57,545 nucleotides of DNA from a virus. The notes beneath the pieces are model-generated. The model did not search any database and was not told the origin of the DNA. It saw only the letters and a program-made list of their open reading frames with translations. This document shows positions 10,227-20,473 of the stretch, in pieces. The translations under genes and the position numbers were made by a program. The stretch's first letter is position 1. Every line of letters begins with the position of its first letter. The stretch is from IMG/VR virus record IMGVR_UViG_3300034523_000291, positions 1-57,545 of that record; one strand, 5' to 3'.

Positions 10227-10790
10227 TCACTTGATCCGGATCGAACTGTCGCCGCGCTCCAAGTGAGCCCAGGTAGGTTCGGGTAAAAGTTCGTGTTCAG
10301 CGTCTTCACCGGCTGCCATGCGCTTGCGCACCGCTTCGTTATGCTCGCGTATCTCCTTGAGCTTGGCGGCAATGGCCTTTTTATCCGGAGCAATGCTCGA
10401 CTTCACAGTGGTCAGTTCGTCCGGCACTGCATCTTCGTTGTCCACGATCACCCGCTCGCTGCCCATGGCCAGCGTGATGGTGAAGAGCGGACGCTTGATC
10501 GACTTGATGTTTGCGGCTTCCATGTTGCGGCGCAGGTAGTCGCCGATCTGCGACACGCTGTTGGACTTGATCCGCTTGAGTTCAGCCAGGCGCTCGATTT
10601 CGTTGTCGATAGCCGTCACGTCGCTTTCAATGTTCCGGCGCAACTTGACGATCTTGTCAGCCTTATCGTTGAAGTCGCCTTGCACTTCGTCCATGGCGTG
10701 CTGCAGGGCCTCTTTCAGGCCCTCATCATCGGTATCGGCCATGGCCTGAAGTTCGGCGAGTTTGCCGGTGAGTGCGTAGAGTTGGGTCAT
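10227..10790 (-). CDS. Siphovirus Gp157-family protein
   Basis: 187 residues. The N-terminal two-thirds are helical with coiled-coil heptads (DKADKIVKLRRNIESDVTAI), then the family's YLRRNMEAANIKSIKRPLFT and the beta segment VDNEDAVPDEL. Gp157 proteins are named after a Streptococcus phage Sfi protein and usually sit next to phage recombination genes, as here. The stop of the upstream annealing-protein gene overlaps its start by 4 bp. Confidence 0.85.
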   Translation of the reverse strand: MTQLYALTGKLAELQAMADTDDEGLKEALQHAMDEVQGDFNDKADKIVKLRRNIESDVTAIDNEIERLAELKRIKSNSVSQIGDYLRRNMEAANIKSIKRPLFTITLAMGSERVIVDNEDAVPDELTTVKSSIAPDKKAIAAKLKEIREHNEAVRKRMAAGEDAEHELLPEPTWAHLERGDSSIRIK

Positions 10791-11530
10791 GCTGCGGCCT
10801 CCGTGCCTTTTTCAAGCACAGCTTTGCGCTCCTCGAATGCTCGAGTGATTCGCGCGATGAAGGTGGGTTCGTTGCGACGAGTTGCCTCGCGGATGTATTT
10901 CACGTTCAGAAGCTTGAGTTCGTGAGTCGTGACGGCCTTGCCAATGGTTTCGACCGCTGAGGCAAGCCAGTCGACACGCTCTTGTTTTTGGCGAAGTATC
11001 TCGGCGTCCTTGTCCTCGGCTTTTTCAAGCTTGAACTCTTCGGTGATGGTGTCGACGTAGGTCGGATCGTCGAACATGCCCATGTAGATGTCGGCGGCGA
11101 ACCCCAACGGCTGCAGGCATTTACCGATGGCGTCCGTCAGCGATTTTTTCGCTGCGTCCCAGTCAGTAAGAATCTTTCCCTGCTGCAGGTAGATAAATGG
11201 CGTATGGCCGTAGTGCTGAACCGTGCATTTTTGCCCGGCGTTGCCCAGGTACCAAAGCTCGATTTTTACGGTGTGCAGCTTCGCGCAGATCATTGGAGCC
11301 TCTGGCCACTCTTTAGTGGGCGCCTGAAGCGGTGCACCTTCGTCAAATCGATCCTCAAGGACATTCCAACCCCAACCCTCACCGCATGGTCCGAAAATCT
11401 CTGTTGCCTTGCGCATGAGGTAGGTTGGCCTGATCGCAGTGCCCTTAAAGCCACCCGCGCCAGTGTATTTTTTAGTAGCGTCAGGGTCGGTTGTGTTGAC
11501 CTGGTCCCAAATTCTCGTGTTCTCGGACAT
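10787..11530 (-). CDS. Rad52-like annealing protein
   Basis: 247 residues. IFGPCGEGWGWNVLEDR followed by DWDAAKKSLTDAIGKCLQPL and GFAADIYMGMFDDP has the pattern of Rad52-superfamily phage single-strand annealing proteins (the 'DA-KKALTDA-KK-L--LGF-AD' helix). It would anneal complementary strands during phage recombination. Neighbours (Gp157 and a GHKL ATPase) fit a recombination module, but no exonuclease partner was recognised. The exact subfamily could not be assigned by eye. Confidence 0.7.
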   Translation of the reverse strand: MSENTRIWDQVNTTDPDATKKYTGAGGFKGTAIRPTYLMRKATEIFGPCGEGWGWNVLEDRFDEGAPLQAPTKEWPEAPMICAKLHTVKIELWYLGNAGQKCTVQHYGHTPFIYLQQGKILTDWDAAKKSLTDAIGKCLQPLGFAADIYMGMFDDPTYVDTITEEFKLEKAEDKDAEILRQKQERVDWLASAVETIGKAVTTHELKLLNVKYIREATRRNEPTFIARITRAFEERKAVLEKGTEAAA

Positions 11531-13827: not shown

Positions 13828-14205
13828 ATGTTCAGATTTTTTCTAGCCACTATTTTTTCATTTGTTTTTCTCGGCGTAATTTCTGGTTGCTCTTCCACTG
13901 CCGAACAAGAAAAAACACTGAGCGCCGGGCTCGTTGCGCATTTGAATAAATTCAAGACGTACCCGATCGCCTCGCAACTGGCCGGGGTTGAAGGGACAAC
14001 CCAACTGCGCTTTACGATAGATGGCGACGGAAATGTCGTTTCTTATGAGCTGGTACAAAGTTCAGGCAATGTGGACTTGGACGCGGCCACTCTAGAATTA
14101 ATCCGTCGCGCCCAACCACTGCCGAAACCACCAGCCGATTTAATGAAAGACGGCCCAATTACGATCATTGCCCCTTTTATCTACTCCCTAGACGGGAATA
14201 TCTGA
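13828..14205 (+). CDS. TonB C-terminal-like lipoprotein
   Basis: 125 residues. A signal peptide with lipobox (GVISGC, Cys21) is followed by a domain like the TonB/TolA C-terminus: LNKFKTYPIASQLAGVEGTT, then VSYELVQSSGNVDLDAATLE and QPLPKPPADL. Real TonB has an N-terminal membrane anchor and Pro-rich spacer; here the domain follows a lipoprotein signal directly. It is on the opposite strand inside the leftward early operon, so it is a moron. It might alter TonB-dependent receptor use, including phage entry; that is inference. Confidence 0.78.
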   Translation: MFRFFLATIFSFVFLGVISGCSSTAEQEKTLSAGLVAHLNKFKTYPIASQLAGVEGTTQLRFTIDGDGNVVSYELVQSSGNVDLDAATLELIRRAQPLPKPPADLMKDGPITIIAPFIYSLDGNI

Positions 14206-14584: not shown

Positions 14585-14628
14585 TTTCTTTTCCTCGTTT
14601 GATTTTCCGGATGACCCTGTCGCCAAGG

Positions 14629-14784
14629 TCATCGAGGAAATCTGTGGGGCCCAGGCCCGCTACTGGCGACGGCCTGGGGTTGTTGCGTCAGCGGTGTTGG
14701 CCAATTACCCGCTGCTGATTGCAGGGCTGGCCGGTCGTCTTCGGTGTGGGCTTCGAGCTTCCTACTCACAGCGTCAAACAGCAT
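14629..14784 (-). CDS. Doubtful 51-aa frame, possibly frameshifted
   Basis: Begins MLFDAVSRKLEAHTEDDRPA. At the CCCC run near 14650 the frame breaks into HRFPR; one base fewer would continue as PTDFLDDLGDRVIRKIKRGK. There is no Shine-Dalgarno before the ATG. The sequence character is gene-like, but support is weak. Confidence 0.3.
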   Translation of the reverse strand: MLFDAVSRKLEAHTEDDRPALQSAAGNWPTPLTQQPQAVASSGPGPHRFPR

Positions 14785-15236: not shown

Positions 15237-15262
15237 GGTAGTCGATGGCGAGGATCCTGAGC

Positions 15263-15274
15263 TTTTAAAGAGCG
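15263..15274 (-). promoter_or_regulatory. BoxA antitermination element
   Basis: Minus strand CGCTCTTTAAAA closely matches rRNA-type boxA (TGCTCTTTAACA), which binds NusB and S10. It lies about 30 nt into the predicted leftward transcript, the place of nutL in lambda. Confidence 0.6.
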
Positions 15275-15308
15275 GTTCGCAGCGGCTGTGTGTTGCTGCG
15301 ATGAAGTG

Positions 15309-15337
15309 AATATAAGCCCGCTTATTTTATTCGTCAA
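15309..15337 (-). promoter_or_regulatory. PL-like leftward early promoter
   Basis: On the minus strand TTGACG (15332-15337), a 17-nt spacer and TATATT (15309-15314): close to a sigma70 consensus. One CI-type operator covers the -10 side and a second adjoins the -35, so repressor would shut it fully. It should drive the leftward early genes from 14584 on. Confidence 0.8.
15312..15325. promoter_or_regulatory. Distal operator OL1-like
   Basis: ATAAGC-CC-GCTTAT, a perfect 6-bp dyad overlapping the -10 of the leftward promoter. The arms are identical to the operator at 20232-20245 next to cro. Confidence 0.8.
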
Positions 15338-15350
15338 TAAGCAGGCTTAT
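15337..15350. promoter_or_regulatory. Distal operator OL2-like
   Basis: ATAAGC-AG-GCTTAT, identical over all 14 bases to the operator at 20232-20245. It abuts the -35 of the leftward promoter and is 25 bp from the neighbouring site. Confidence 0.82.
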
Positions 15351-15368
15351 ATATTTTCCTGCGGGCGA

Positions 15369-15397
15369 TAAAAAGCCCGCTCAGTGGCGGGCTCTTT
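15369..15397. terminator. Bidirectional terminator
   Basis: AGCCCGC-tcagtg-GCGGGCT with a T tract on both sides. It ends the DUF1654 transcript (stop at 15397) just before the leftward promoter. Confidence 0.8.
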
Positions 15398-15648
15398 TAT
15401 GAGTCGCAGTACTCGTGCCAGCCGATTCTGACGGTGCCTCCATCCAAATGCTCAACCCTAATACCGGCCGTGTCACCGATCTCCTGGATTACCTGGTGCC
15501 AGGCTTCAGGGCTTTCATCGTCGCGCCTGGAGACCTCAACCAACTGAATCCGCTGTACCCGCGGAGAGGCGATCAACCGTTGCAGGCGATGGCCCACAAG
15601 TTCGTAGGAGTTTCTCGATTTTGGTGTGGGGTAGGGTGCCTGGATCAT
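15397..15648 (-). CDS. DUF1654 protein, SOS-controlled
   Basis: 83 residues from the ATG at 15648, which has AAGGAGCG upstream. SYELVGHRLQRLIASPRVQR and DDESPEAWHQVIQEIGDTAG match the DUF1654 family, which is mainly found in Pseudomonas and its phages and has no assigned function. A LexA box lies 20 bp upstream within the promoter, so it should be DNA-damage-inducible. It is followed at once by a terminator. Confidence 0.82.
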   Translation of the reverse strand: MIQAPYPTPKSRNSYELVGHRLQRLIASPRVQRIQLVEVSRRDDESPEAWHQVIQEIGDTAGIRVEHLDGGTVRIGWHEYCDS

Positions 15649-15667
15649 GCTTCGCTCCTTGCGAATG

Positions 15668-17423: not shown

Positions 17424-18497
17424 TCAGACAACCCTGAGACGAGGAGGCGTTATCGGACGGTTCGGCTCGGGTTGCTCTCCTAGCACCCCTTGGAGAAGAG
17501 AGTCCATCTCATCGAGAGGAAGGTTAAGTTGATCGGCAATCGACTCCTTCGTATAGCGATCCTTCCAAAGCTCTTCAAGCACTTTTCGCCAAAGCACAGA
17601 GAATTCCCTATCCATAGATTGGGGTTCCTTTGTTCTATAGCCAGCTATTGCAATCTGCTTGCAGATCTCTCTGTAATGCCAATCAGATAAAATATTTACA
17701 TCCCTAAGGCTCCGAGCCAAAGCAGGTACAGAAACTCCCCATCTTTTCTTGCTGGCGATAATTTGTGAAATGGATCTTACTGAGGGAAGATTTGCAATCA
17801 AATCTTCCCTGGGTATCAACAGGTTAGACGCAAATGCGTCCGCATCTCGCTCAACATCAGAGCCTTCAGTATAACCATGCGCATGCATTAGCAAATGGCC
17901 CAGCTCATGAGCGGCGTCGAACCGGCTGCGTTCTGACGACTTTATGGTATTCAAAAAAATAAATGGAGTGCCATCTCTCCAAAATGAGAATGCGTCAACG
18001 TCACGACCTTCCGACAAAGTGAAGATCCGAACACCTTTAGATTCGAGAAGCTTGATCAAGTTTGGTATAGGACGGAACCCAAGGCCCCAATGACGCCTAA
18101 TTGATGCTGCAGCTGAAACTGGATCTTCATCTCTTAGATCGAGTAGGTCTTGTGTGGGAAGATTAAATTTACTTGCAACCCAGTCGTTGAATAGATACCC
18201 AAGCGCACCGCTGGCTAATGCCGCGTCTGTTTGTTTGGCAGTCATTGATTTTAGACTACGAAAACTTACCTGCTTGCTATGTAGCTCATCTACATCGTCA
18301 AGATAAAAGAACTCAACTGGATACTTTAAAGCCTTCGCTATTGCGGCTACTGTTTCTGTTGAGGGTTCAATGGTAACCCCTTTTGCTATCCTAGAGAGTG
18401 TGACTTGAGTAACTCCAGACAGCTCTGCGAGTTTTTTTTGCGTAAGCTGCCTGCGCTTTCTAGCGAAGTCGAGCCGTGAAAGATTGAGATTCGCCAT
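17424..18497 (-). CDS. XRE regulator with ImmA/IrrE protease
   Basis: 357 residues. Residues 7-65 are an XRE helix-turn-helix (LTQKKLAELSGVTQVTLSRI). The central part is a COG2856/ImmA-type zinc metallopeptidase with HELGH at 197-201 and the third ligand region VERDADAFASNLLIP (Glu216). The C-terminus (to RLRVV) is helical. In related systems ImmA cleaves a repressor to release mobile-element or stress genes. The gene starts 2 bp after the stop of the partner at 18500, so the two form one operon controlled by the 45-bp dyad upstream of the partner. Confidence 0.88.
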   Translation of the reverse strand: MANLNLSRLDFARKRRQLTQKKLAELSGVTQVTLSRIAKGVTIEPSTETVAAIAKALKYPVEFFYLDDVDELHSKQVSFRSLKSMTAKQTDAALASGALGYLFNDWVASKFNLPTQDLLDLRDEDPVSAAASIRRHWGLGFRPIPNLIKLLESKGVRIFTLSEGRDVDAFSFWRDGTPFIFLNTIKSSERSRFDAAHELGHLLMHAHGYTEGSDVERDADAFASNLLIPREDLIANLPSVRSISQIIASKKRWGVSVPALARSLRDVNILSDWHYREICKQIAIAGYRTKEPQSMDREFSVLWRKVLEELWKDRYTKESIADQLNLPLDEMDSLLQGVLGEQPEPNRPITPPRLRVV

Positions 18498-18499
18498 CT

Positions 18500-19144
18500 T
18501 TATTTTTTCGAAATCAGAATTTCTGGCTCATCGACAATGCCTTCCGCCGCGGGAGCAGTCGCGAATTCCAGCAGGTCGATATCTTTATCAGCAACAAAAA
18601 TTCGGTCAAAGAAACCTACGAAGTGATCTTCTGTGAATGGTTTTGGCCTGGATACCTCAACCTCCAATCGTTTTGCGTTAGCCGATACGCAAACGAACCA
18701 TACCACCGGAAAGCTACCATCCGGACGACTGTCCACAACATCAGCCCTAGGGAAGAGACTTTGCGCATGAGGGGCAGCTACTAAATCACGTGTAGCCTCT
18801 CCTTTAGGTGAAATCGCTTGCGGCTCGATATCCTTGCAAGCGTGATCTACGTTTTGAAAACCCAGCATGATCCCAAGGTCGTCATTAACTACAATCTCGA
18901 TATTTCTGAAGTTGCCAGTTCTCCAACCGCTAGGAAGTGTCTCTAGGCGGAGGTGCCGAATCCCGGCCTGATAAGCTTGAGTACCAGGGAAGTTGACTGG
19001 GTCAACCCCTTCTAGGTATTCGGATCGAGCGCTCGCTGCTGCCATACCAATTTTGATGATCTGGTCAGAGGTGAGACCCAGGGCGTCAAGGCTGCGCTTA
19101 ATATCGTATGGCTGGTCGATAATACCGAGAGCATGATTGGACAT
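18500..19144 (-). CDS. Partner protein of XRE-ImmA
   Basis: 214 residues from the ATG at 19144, with AGGTG upstream; an earlier in-frame start at 19204 would lie in the dyad operator. Contains MSNHALGIIDQPYDIKRSLD, FRNIEIVVNDDLGIMLGFQ and a C-terminal VEVSRPKPFTEDHFVGFFDR. No domain was recognised. The same operon as an ImmA protease suggests it is a substrate, toxin or sensor partner; this is inference. The arrangement resembles a two-gene toxin-antitoxin or defence unit. Confidence 0.75.
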   Translation of the reverse strand: MSNHALGIIDQPYDIKRSLDALGLTSDQIIKIGMAAASARSEYLEGVDPVNFPGTQAYQAGIRHLRLETLPSGWRTGNFRNIEIVVNDDLGIMLGFQNVDHACKDIEPQAISPKGEATRDLVAAPHAQSLFPRADVVDSRPDGSFPVVWFVCVSANAKRLEVEVSRPKPFTEDHFVGFFDRIFVADKDIDLLEFATAPAAEGIVDEPEILISKK

Positions 19145-19155
19145 ATTTTCACCTG

Positions 19156-19200
19156 ATGTTAATTTTTTCTTCCTACATTGTAGGTTAAAAAAATTAACAT
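19156..19200. promoter_or_regulatory. 45-bp dyad operator of XRE-ImmA operon
   Basis: A 13-bp outer inverted repeat (ATGTTAATTTTTT at 19156-19168 and its complement at 19188-19200) and an inner one (CCTACA-T-TGTAGG, 19172-19184) share the same centre at 19178. A leftward promoter candidate (TTGCAT, 16 nt, TACAAT) lies across it. A strong candidate for autoregulation by the XRE domain. Confidence 0.75.
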
Positions 19201-19270
19201 GCAATGGCTGGTCGATGAGCGCGCAGGCCTTTCGGATTTACTTCAGTGATCCTGTCCGACCACAGTCGCC

Positions 19271-19513
19271 TCAAAAACGCGCGCCATAGAAGTGATTCAG
19301 CGCTATCAGTTCAACCACAGCCACGAAAACGCAGAGCACAACGAAGCCAGGGCTGAAGACCCGCTTGCGGCCGGATGAGCTCCAGCTAAGACCAGCTGCG
19401 TCGGAGTAGCCGGGGATCATCATAAGCAACGCCAGGCAAGCAATTACCCCAACCTTGCTCCAGAAGGACCGCTCTCGCCATGAGGTCGAAGGTTTTCCAA
19501 GGGCGGATGGCAT
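19271..19513 (-). CDS. Membrane protein coupled to cI
   Basis: 80 residues with two hydrophobic segments (about 19-36, VGVIACLALLMMIPG, and 53-75, GFVVLCVFVAVVELIAL). Its ATG overlaps the cI stop (TGATG), so it should be translated in the lysogen along with repressor. Position equals rexA in lambda, and a role in excluding other phages is plausible, but no family was recognised. Confidence 0.72.
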   Translation of the reverse strand: MPSALGKPSTSWRERSFWSKVGVIACLALLMMIPGYSDAAGLSWSSSGRKRVFSPGFVVLCVFVAVVELIALNHFYGARF

Positions 19514-20172
19514 CAGTAAAATTTCTGCAGCGCCTGCACAACCACGCCCACGATCCGGCAGTTCTCGTCCACCGCCTCGATCGGGTAGCTGGGGTTCAGC
19601 GGCTTCAGGAACAGTCGACCGCCATCGCTGACCAGCTTCTTGAACGTCGCTTCGTTGCTGTCTGGCAGCTTGGCTACCACCAGCTTGCCTGGGGCGACTT
19701 CGGCCTCAGTGTCCACCAGGATCAGAGTGCCTTCAGTGATGCTCTGACCGGCGGGCGCCGTCATTGAGTCACCTTTCACCTTCAGCCAAAACGCTGTGCC
19801 CTTGGAGTCGTACTCCGAAAACTCATAGCTGTCAGAGAATCCGGCCGGGTAGGGCTCAACAGCCTCCGCCCAGGCGCCGGCGGCAACCCAGCTGATTACG
19901 GGGTAGCGGAATGATTTGGTGGGCTGCGCGGCAATAGAGATATTTGACTCGGCAGCGCTTACACCTGTCATTGGCCCGGTATTTTCGGAGAGCCAAATAG
20001 CGTTCACACCACACACATGGGCGATCTTCGGCAGGTGTGCGCTTTGAAGGTTCTTTCCGGTCTCCAGCTGGGAGATTACCGGCTGCTCAACACCCACTTT
20101 TAAGGCGAGCGCCTTCTGCGTCAGCTTGGCGTGATTGCGTGCGGTTTTGATTCGTTCGGCGAGTGTGCTCAT
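19513..20172 (-). CDS. cI: CI repressor, LexA/S24 type
   Basis: 219 residues from the ATG at 20172. Residues 5-62 form an XRE helix-turn-helix (LTQKALALKVGVEQPVISQL). The C-terminal half is a LexA-like self-cleaving peptidase: cleavage site Ala98-Gly99 (VAAGAW), nucleophile Ser136 in KGDSM and Lys178 in TFKKL. It should hold the prophage silent through the operators at 20185-20245 and 15312-15350 and cleave itself on RecA activation. No Shine-Dalgarno precedes the ATG, which lies only about 9 bp after a TATAAA box, so the message from that promoter would be almost leaderless. Confidence 0.93.
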   Translation of the reverse strand: MSTLAERIKTARNHAKLTQKALALKVGVEQPVISQLETGKNLQSAHLPKIAHVCGVNAIWLSENTGPMTGVSAAESNISIAAQPTKSFRYPVISWVAAGAWAEAVEPYPAGFSDSYEFSEYDSKGTAFWLKVKGDSMTAPAGQSITEGTLILVDTEAEVAPGKLVVAKLPDSNEATFKKLVSDGGRLFLKPLNPSYPIEAVDENCRIVGVVVQALQKFY

Positions 20173-20181
20173 CAGCTGGAA

Positions 20182-20209
20182 TTTATAAGTTCCCTTATCG
20201 GCTTGCAAA
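20182..20209 (-). promoter_or_regulatory. PRM-like promoter for cI
   Basis: On the minus strand TTTGCA (20204-20209), 16 nt, TATAAA (20182-20187). Transcription would begin 1-4 nt before the cI ATG, as at lambda PRM. The -10 overlaps the operator nearest cI. Confidence 0.55.
20185..20198. promoter_or_regulatory. Operator OR3-like
   Basis: ATAAGT-TC-CCTTAT, a variant of the ATAAGC-N2-GCTTAT dyad. It overlaps the -10 of the cI promoter, so filling it would limit cI synthesis. Confidence 0.65.
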
Positions 20210-20231
20210 TAAGTTTCCTTCTACTTAGGAT
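20203..20231 (+). promoter_or_regulatory. PR-like promoter for cro
   Basis: TTGCAA (20203-20208), 17 nt, TAGGAT (20226-20231). The middle operator lies between its -35 and -10 and the strongest operator just after the -10. Confidence 0.6.
20209..20222. promoter_or_regulatory. Operator OR2-like
   Basis: ATAAGT-TT-CCTTCT, an imperfect copy of the dyad, 24 bp from the site near cI and 23 bp from the site near cro. The spacing of about two helical turns is as in lambda OR. Confidence 0.5.
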
Positions 20232-20245
20232 ATAAGCAGGCTTAT
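20232..20245. promoter_or_regulatory. Operator OR1-like
   Basis: ATAAGC-AG-GCTTAT, perfect 6-bp arms, 15 bp before the cro start and at the predicted start of the cro transcript. Identical to the distal site at 15337-15350. Confidence 0.82.
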
Positions 20246-20253
20246 CAGGAGGG

Positions 20254-20261
20254 TGCTCTTA
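20254..20261 (+). promoter_or_regulatory. Possible boxA before cro
   Basis: TGCTCTTA resembles boxA and would be near the 5' end of the rightward early RNA. Short, and it also lies between the Shine-Dalgarno and the ATG of cro, so it may be chance. Confidence 0.25.
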
Positions 20262-20473
20262 TGACCCCTATCGAAAGGCTCGTCGACTTCTTCGGCGGGC
20301 AAACCAAAACCGCTATAGCGCTCGACGTTTCTCAAGCCGCAGTTTCGTACTGGGTTGCCGGGATTCACCCGATGCGCGCCGAAAAGGCTTTCAAGGCAGA
20401 AGAGTTGACCGGTGGAAAAATCACTGCTCGCGAGCTTTGTATTCCCGGAAAGGACGCCCAATCCGCCGCCTGA
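20261..20473 (+). CDS. cro: Cro-like repressor
   Basis: 70 residues with an N-terminal helix-turn-helix of the YdaS/Cro type (LVDFFGGQTKTAIALDVSQA, then AVSYWVAGIHPM). AGGAGGG lies upstream. Divergent from cI with three operators between, so it should bind the same dyads and favour lytic growth. Confidence 0.88.
   Translation: MTPIERLVDFFGGQTKTAIALDVSQAAVSYWVAGIHPMRAEKAFKAEELTGGKITARELCIPGKDAQSAA

Follow-up and report, generated by a model that had tools for sequence, protein, structure and literature searches.

The segment at positions 15309–15350 of the window (the whole stretch of DNA that was analysed, 57,545 nucleotides long) is very probably the OL/PL region of a lambdoid Pseudomonas prophage, and is predicted to be controlled by the prophage's own CI. 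This reading draws on operator identity, promoter geometry, conservation and the way in which the operators at the two ends of the cI interval switch together, all of which are observed in the sequences themselves. The window, a virus record from IMG/VR, has a lambdoid plan, in which cI faces a cro-like gene and is followed on that side by genes for a CII-like activator and an anti-repressor.

Operators and promoters of the immunity region

Two perfect ATAAGC-N2-GCTTAT sites, 25 bp apart as the first-pass annotation had reported, were located at 15312–15325 (OL1, ATAAGCCCGCTTAT) and 15337–15350 (OL2, ATAAGCAGGCTTAT). Both are predicted CI operators. The leftward promoter described with them, TTGACG-17-TATATT, is also present (PL, 15309–15337, minus strand, with the −35 at 15332–15337 and the −10 at 15309–15314). 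The sites do not simply flank it, however, as had been proposed: OL1 lies inside the promoter, overlapping half of the −10 together with most of the spacer, and OL2 begins at 15337, the first base of the −35. In a promoter scan across 14–21 kb, PL was the sole 10/12 match and had the top score. No third OL site was found beside the pair in a motif scan at up to two mismatches. A terminator-like inverted repeat (15368–15395) is placed between PL and a gene with a DUF1654 domain annotation (15397–15651, minus strand).

At OR, three sites are spaced 23–24 bp apart. OR1, on the cro side (20232–20245), is a perfect predicted operator with the sequence ATAAGCAGGCTTAT; it is identical to OL2, and the 14-base identity noted earlier between the site at 15337 and the cro-side operator is thus borne out. 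The middle site, OR2 (ATAAGTTTCCTTCT, 20209–20222), is degenerate, although its position is kept in relatives, and OR3 on the cI side (ATAAGTTCCCTTAT, 20185–20198) has two mismatches. The sites lie between cI (19513–20172, minus strand, HTH_3 and peptidase S24 domains) and the cro-like gene (20261–20473, plus strand), both identified by domain annotation. The distance of almost 5 kb previously given as that from the pair to cI is the OL–OR distance (4,895 bp); from the pair to where the cI gene ends it is about 4.2 kb. OL has tandem operators that share their sequence with those at OR, and the promoter that they overlap points away from cI, both as expected of a lambdoid OL/PL.

The predicted CI is about 47% identical to that of phage 434 over its full length. 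Its N-terminal domain matches 434 repressor structures, and its C-terminal domain matches structures of the lambda CI C-terminal domain (e.g., 1kca). By eye, a possible PRM (TTGCAA-17-TAAATT, 20172–20209, minus strand) can be placed such that its −35 would coincide with the −35 of PR. The cI mRNA from this promoter would begin nearly at the ATG, and would thus be leaderless.

Recurrence of the operator pair

We scanned IMG/VR for two ATAAGC-N2-GCTTAT sites 5–25 bp apart and found such a pair in 36 contigs. In 33 of these the two sites are arranged around TTGAC-17/18-TATATT in the register seen in the window. The promoter was no part of the query, which specified the operators alone; its presence between them is therefore independent evidence. 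Most of the 33 contigs have a third perfect site at a distance of 1.17–6.13 kb. It invariably lies upstream of PL, where cI and OR are expected. No preferred length is apparent among these OL–OR distances.

The motif is rare in host genomes. Nine genomes that carry relatives of the prophage (5.3–7.4 Mb) have two to four copies each, nearly all at prophage OR or OL, and four genomes with other immunity types have none. The first-pass annotation had named frequent occurrence of the 14-mer in the host as grounds for abandoning the interpretation; the nine carriers, which are hosts of relatives rather than the window's own host, give the opposite result. The ATAAGC-type OR was not found in phages MR13 and UFJF_PfDIW6, which probably belong to other immunity types.

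These counts bear on whether the sites are a chance match or a host-wide palindromic repeat that has no regulatory role. Only the palindromic form of the motif speaks for this explanation. The window contains three matches to AWAAGYNNRCTTWT against 0.02 expected over its whole length, a number that was reached by no shuffle; copies are few in the carrier genomes and absent from the four others, and the register with the promoter is conserved in 33 contigs. We consider this explanation exceedingly improbable, and it was rejected on the window statistics and the genome counts.

The layout is already known from a Pseudomonas aeruginosa phage, phi297 (NC_016762). As in the window, its operators (ATAAGCACGCTTAT and ATAAGCAGACTTAT) lie on a TTGACA-17-TATATT promoter, with a DUF1654 gene alongside. 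The promoter at this place was annotated by the depositors; the record annotates promoters and does not list operators. The OL–OR distance in phi297 is about 2.9 kb, shorter than in the window, and the cargo is different (it includes a ParA-like gene).

Operator type follows CI type

We took 76 CI relatives from GTDB genomes. Those from Pseudomonas have several kinds of N-terminal domain, and each kind goes with an OR operator of its own: ATAAGC (type A), ATGGG (type B), ATAAC (type C) and TTCAGC (type D). We searched 38 typed loci for distal pairs of every type, with type consensuses set by inspection of the OR regions. A distal pair was found in 22 of the 38, all of them Pseudomonas loci (nine of type A, four of type B, three of type C and six of type D). 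In all 22 it is of the locus's own OR type, and cross-type pairs are absent, although these loci share ancestry and are not independent cases. The PL hexamers (TTGAC and the −10) stay in place across types while the operators are swapped. Type C relatives have three OL sites. In several further loci, distal sites are suggested by looser matches. Some CI relatives have no distal pair at the thresholds used, in part because of contig ends or degenerate sites.

The clearest case of operators following CI is a natural experiment. One locus (L046) encodes a CI whose C-terminal part shows 97% identity, across 147 residues, with that of the window CI. Its N-terminal domain and both of its distant operator sets are of a type other than that of the window. 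As predicted for a lambdoid OL/PL, the operators appear to change together with the specificity of CI.

This pattern also informs the question of which protein the sites serve. Lambdoid Cro and CI usually share operators, and a second HTH protein, RmrA, is encoded between cI and OL. The sites might therefore serve mainly Cro or another phage XRE-type protein, such as RmrA through its HTH domain, instead of CI. However, across loci the operator type goes with the N-terminal domain of CI, and a relative of RmrA occurs in just one other of the 22 intervals, that of L046, where the operators are of a different type. We thus regard a main role for a protein other than CI as very unlikely, and favor CI as the protein that they mainly serve. 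Cro may also use them alongside CI. Together, recurrence, the co-switching of types, rarity in host genomes and the direction of PL uphold the original proposal that the pair is an OL/PL equivalent.

Four loci with a type A CI and OR (L050, L052, L053 and L054) lack a detectable distal pair within 10 kb. Tail-tube and tape-measure genes are beside cI in L053. The L050 locus lies between a lysis cassette and chromosomal genes, and L054 contains genes for an endolysin and a chromosomal permease. L050, L053 and L054 look like tailocin or domesticated chromosomal loci without a phage left operon, in which one would not expect an OL. By its CI, L052 is a close relative of L050.

Left operon and cargo genes

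PL is predicted to lead into an early-left operon with genes for recombination and host-nuclease inhibition. By family match, these include a leftward gene of an exonuclease-labelled PHROG family (10787–11530, minus strand) and a leftward Siphovirus Gp157/Gam-like gene (10227–10790, minus strand). Between PL and these genes the leftward early region is interrupted by a plus-strand gene (13828–14205) for a small lipoprotein with a TonB C-terminal domain, which is likely accessory.

The ends of the cI–OL interval are constant in all 22 loci with a distal pair, with cI at one end and the DUF1654 gene at the other; the middle varies. In the window, the cargo includes the genes for RmrA (17424–18497, minus strand; HTH domain and ImmA/IrrE peptidase) and, next to it, RmrT (18500–19204, minus strand; likely ATG start at 19144). 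By gene content, this pair is predicted to be a RosmerTA toxin-antitoxin defence system, a family described previously (PMC10440598). A palindrome (CCTACA-T-TGTAGG, 19172–19184), noted by eye, lies immediately upstream of the likely start of RmrT. It is possible that this is an autoregulatory operator of RmrA.

These genomes point to an immunity circuit of a Pseudomonas prophage group with four operator specificities, every one of them found at OR as well as at OL, and with cargo between the two that can be exchanged.

Regulation and looping

We infer CI binding, repression of PL and induction from the sequence features. In a lysogen, CI dimers on OL1 and OL2 would block RNA polymerase at PL and so keep the leftward operon, with its Gam-like and exonuclease-family genes, turned off. 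The same CI would hold OR together with the rightward promoter at a distance of 4.9 kb. Cleavage of CI in the SOS response, suggested by the S24 domain, would open both promoters. CI on OL and OR may also bridge the two regions, so that cI and the intervening cargo genes form the loop.

Such CI-mediated looping in the lysogen, which had been raised in the first reading of the sequence, is plausible because lambda OL–OR constructs loop at 20 kb, and by analogy we consider it probable. In lambda, the 20 kb loop still forms with an efficiency of about 16%, and all three lambdoid repressors tested loop (PMC8053113). The C-terminal domain of the window CI, which matches that of lambda CI, is consistent with this capacity. 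It is possible, if somewhat doubtful, that CI instead acts at OL and OR independently, without a loop, and that the spacing is simply set by whatever cargo has been inserted. The lack of a preferred length among the OL–OR distances fits independent action, as does the presence of only two OL sites together with an OR in which two of three sites are weak; lambda constructs with two operators loop less well than those with three (PMC8053113). The contigs with ATAAGC-type operators, in which OL and OR are 1.2–6.1 kb apart, form a comparative series that is ready for asking over what distances the two can cooperate.

Comparison with known systems

As in the window, the repeated CI operators of lambda overlap the early-left promoter and have the same sequence as those at OR. 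In both, cI and exclusion or defence cargo lie between OL and OR, and the PL leader has a boxA-type element. Lambda carries rexAB between cI and OL, and the RosmerTA pair presumably occupies the equivalent place. The window differs from lambda in having two OL sites rather than three, which sets it apart from the three-site subtype, in its 14-bp, 434-like operators and in its spacing of 4.9 kb, compared with a natural OL–OR spacing of 2.3 kb in lambda (PMC8053113).

Phage 434 resembles the window in its CI (both have the 434-type N-terminal domain) and in operator length, the 434 operators being 14 bp. The window is distinguished from it by the ATAAGC-N2-GCTTAT operator sequence and by the Pseudomonas cargo. 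HK022 and phiKO2 also have two operator regions, one on either side of the repressor gene. Their OL–OR intervals are much shorter (about 700 bp and 630 bp, respectively), and looping has been measured in both (PMC8053113), whereas in the window it is only inferred.

A modular RNA in the PL leader

The PL leader RNA is more novel than the operator pair. The transcript opens with a hairpin (15278–15300, minus strand), followed by a boxA-like element (CGCTCTTTAAAAG, 15262–15274, minus strand). Neither is beyond what chance would give in the window alone: the hairpin has a fold z of −1.5, and a random sequence would also yield near matches to the boxA pattern. What carries weight is conservation: of 52 distinct PL leaders, 44 have a boxA of the CGCTCTTTAAAAG type after the −10. 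No convincing boxA-type element was identified at PR, either in the window or in relatives.

Further along the leader is a bulged hairpin that shows covariation (14650–14678, minus strand), with an invariant-type GU/GA bulge and a CGC-CAGUA-GCG tip. Directly before the first leftward gene there is a second covarying stem (14601–14642, minus strand). In 24 distinct copies of the bulged hairpin, 46 cells are changed on both sides of the stem, against 16 in shuffles and at most seven in slid controls. Most stem positions have several pair types among 124 distinct copies in the fetched loci. Copies were retained only where six of eight stem pairs form (210 of 269 core matches). Of the 183 copies for which 900 upstream bases are available, 114 are preceded by a boxA in the same orientation and none by one on the opposite strand.

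A search of the PL leader against Rfam 15 gave no match at the gathering threshold, and below it only weak matches to eukaryotic snoRNA and lncRNA families. A boxA-type element in the PL leader is a feature shared with N/nutL antitermination in lambda. We did not recognize an N-like gene among the scanned leftward proteins, in which respect the window differs from lambda; N proteins are short and divergent. We tentatively propose that the PL leader is an undescribed modular RNA, which could be either a processive antitermination signal that functions without N (similar to put or rrn, with host factors) or a site on which some unknown protein of the phage acts. Antitermination is the leading guess for its role. 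The leader can be put to the test as a possible new element of antitermination or processing. Its modules occur in the order hairpin, boxA, one or more hairpins with the CAGUA tip, and the second stem before the first gene. The hairpin thus precedes boxA in the window, whereas in the lambda leader boxA comes first and the hairpin after it.
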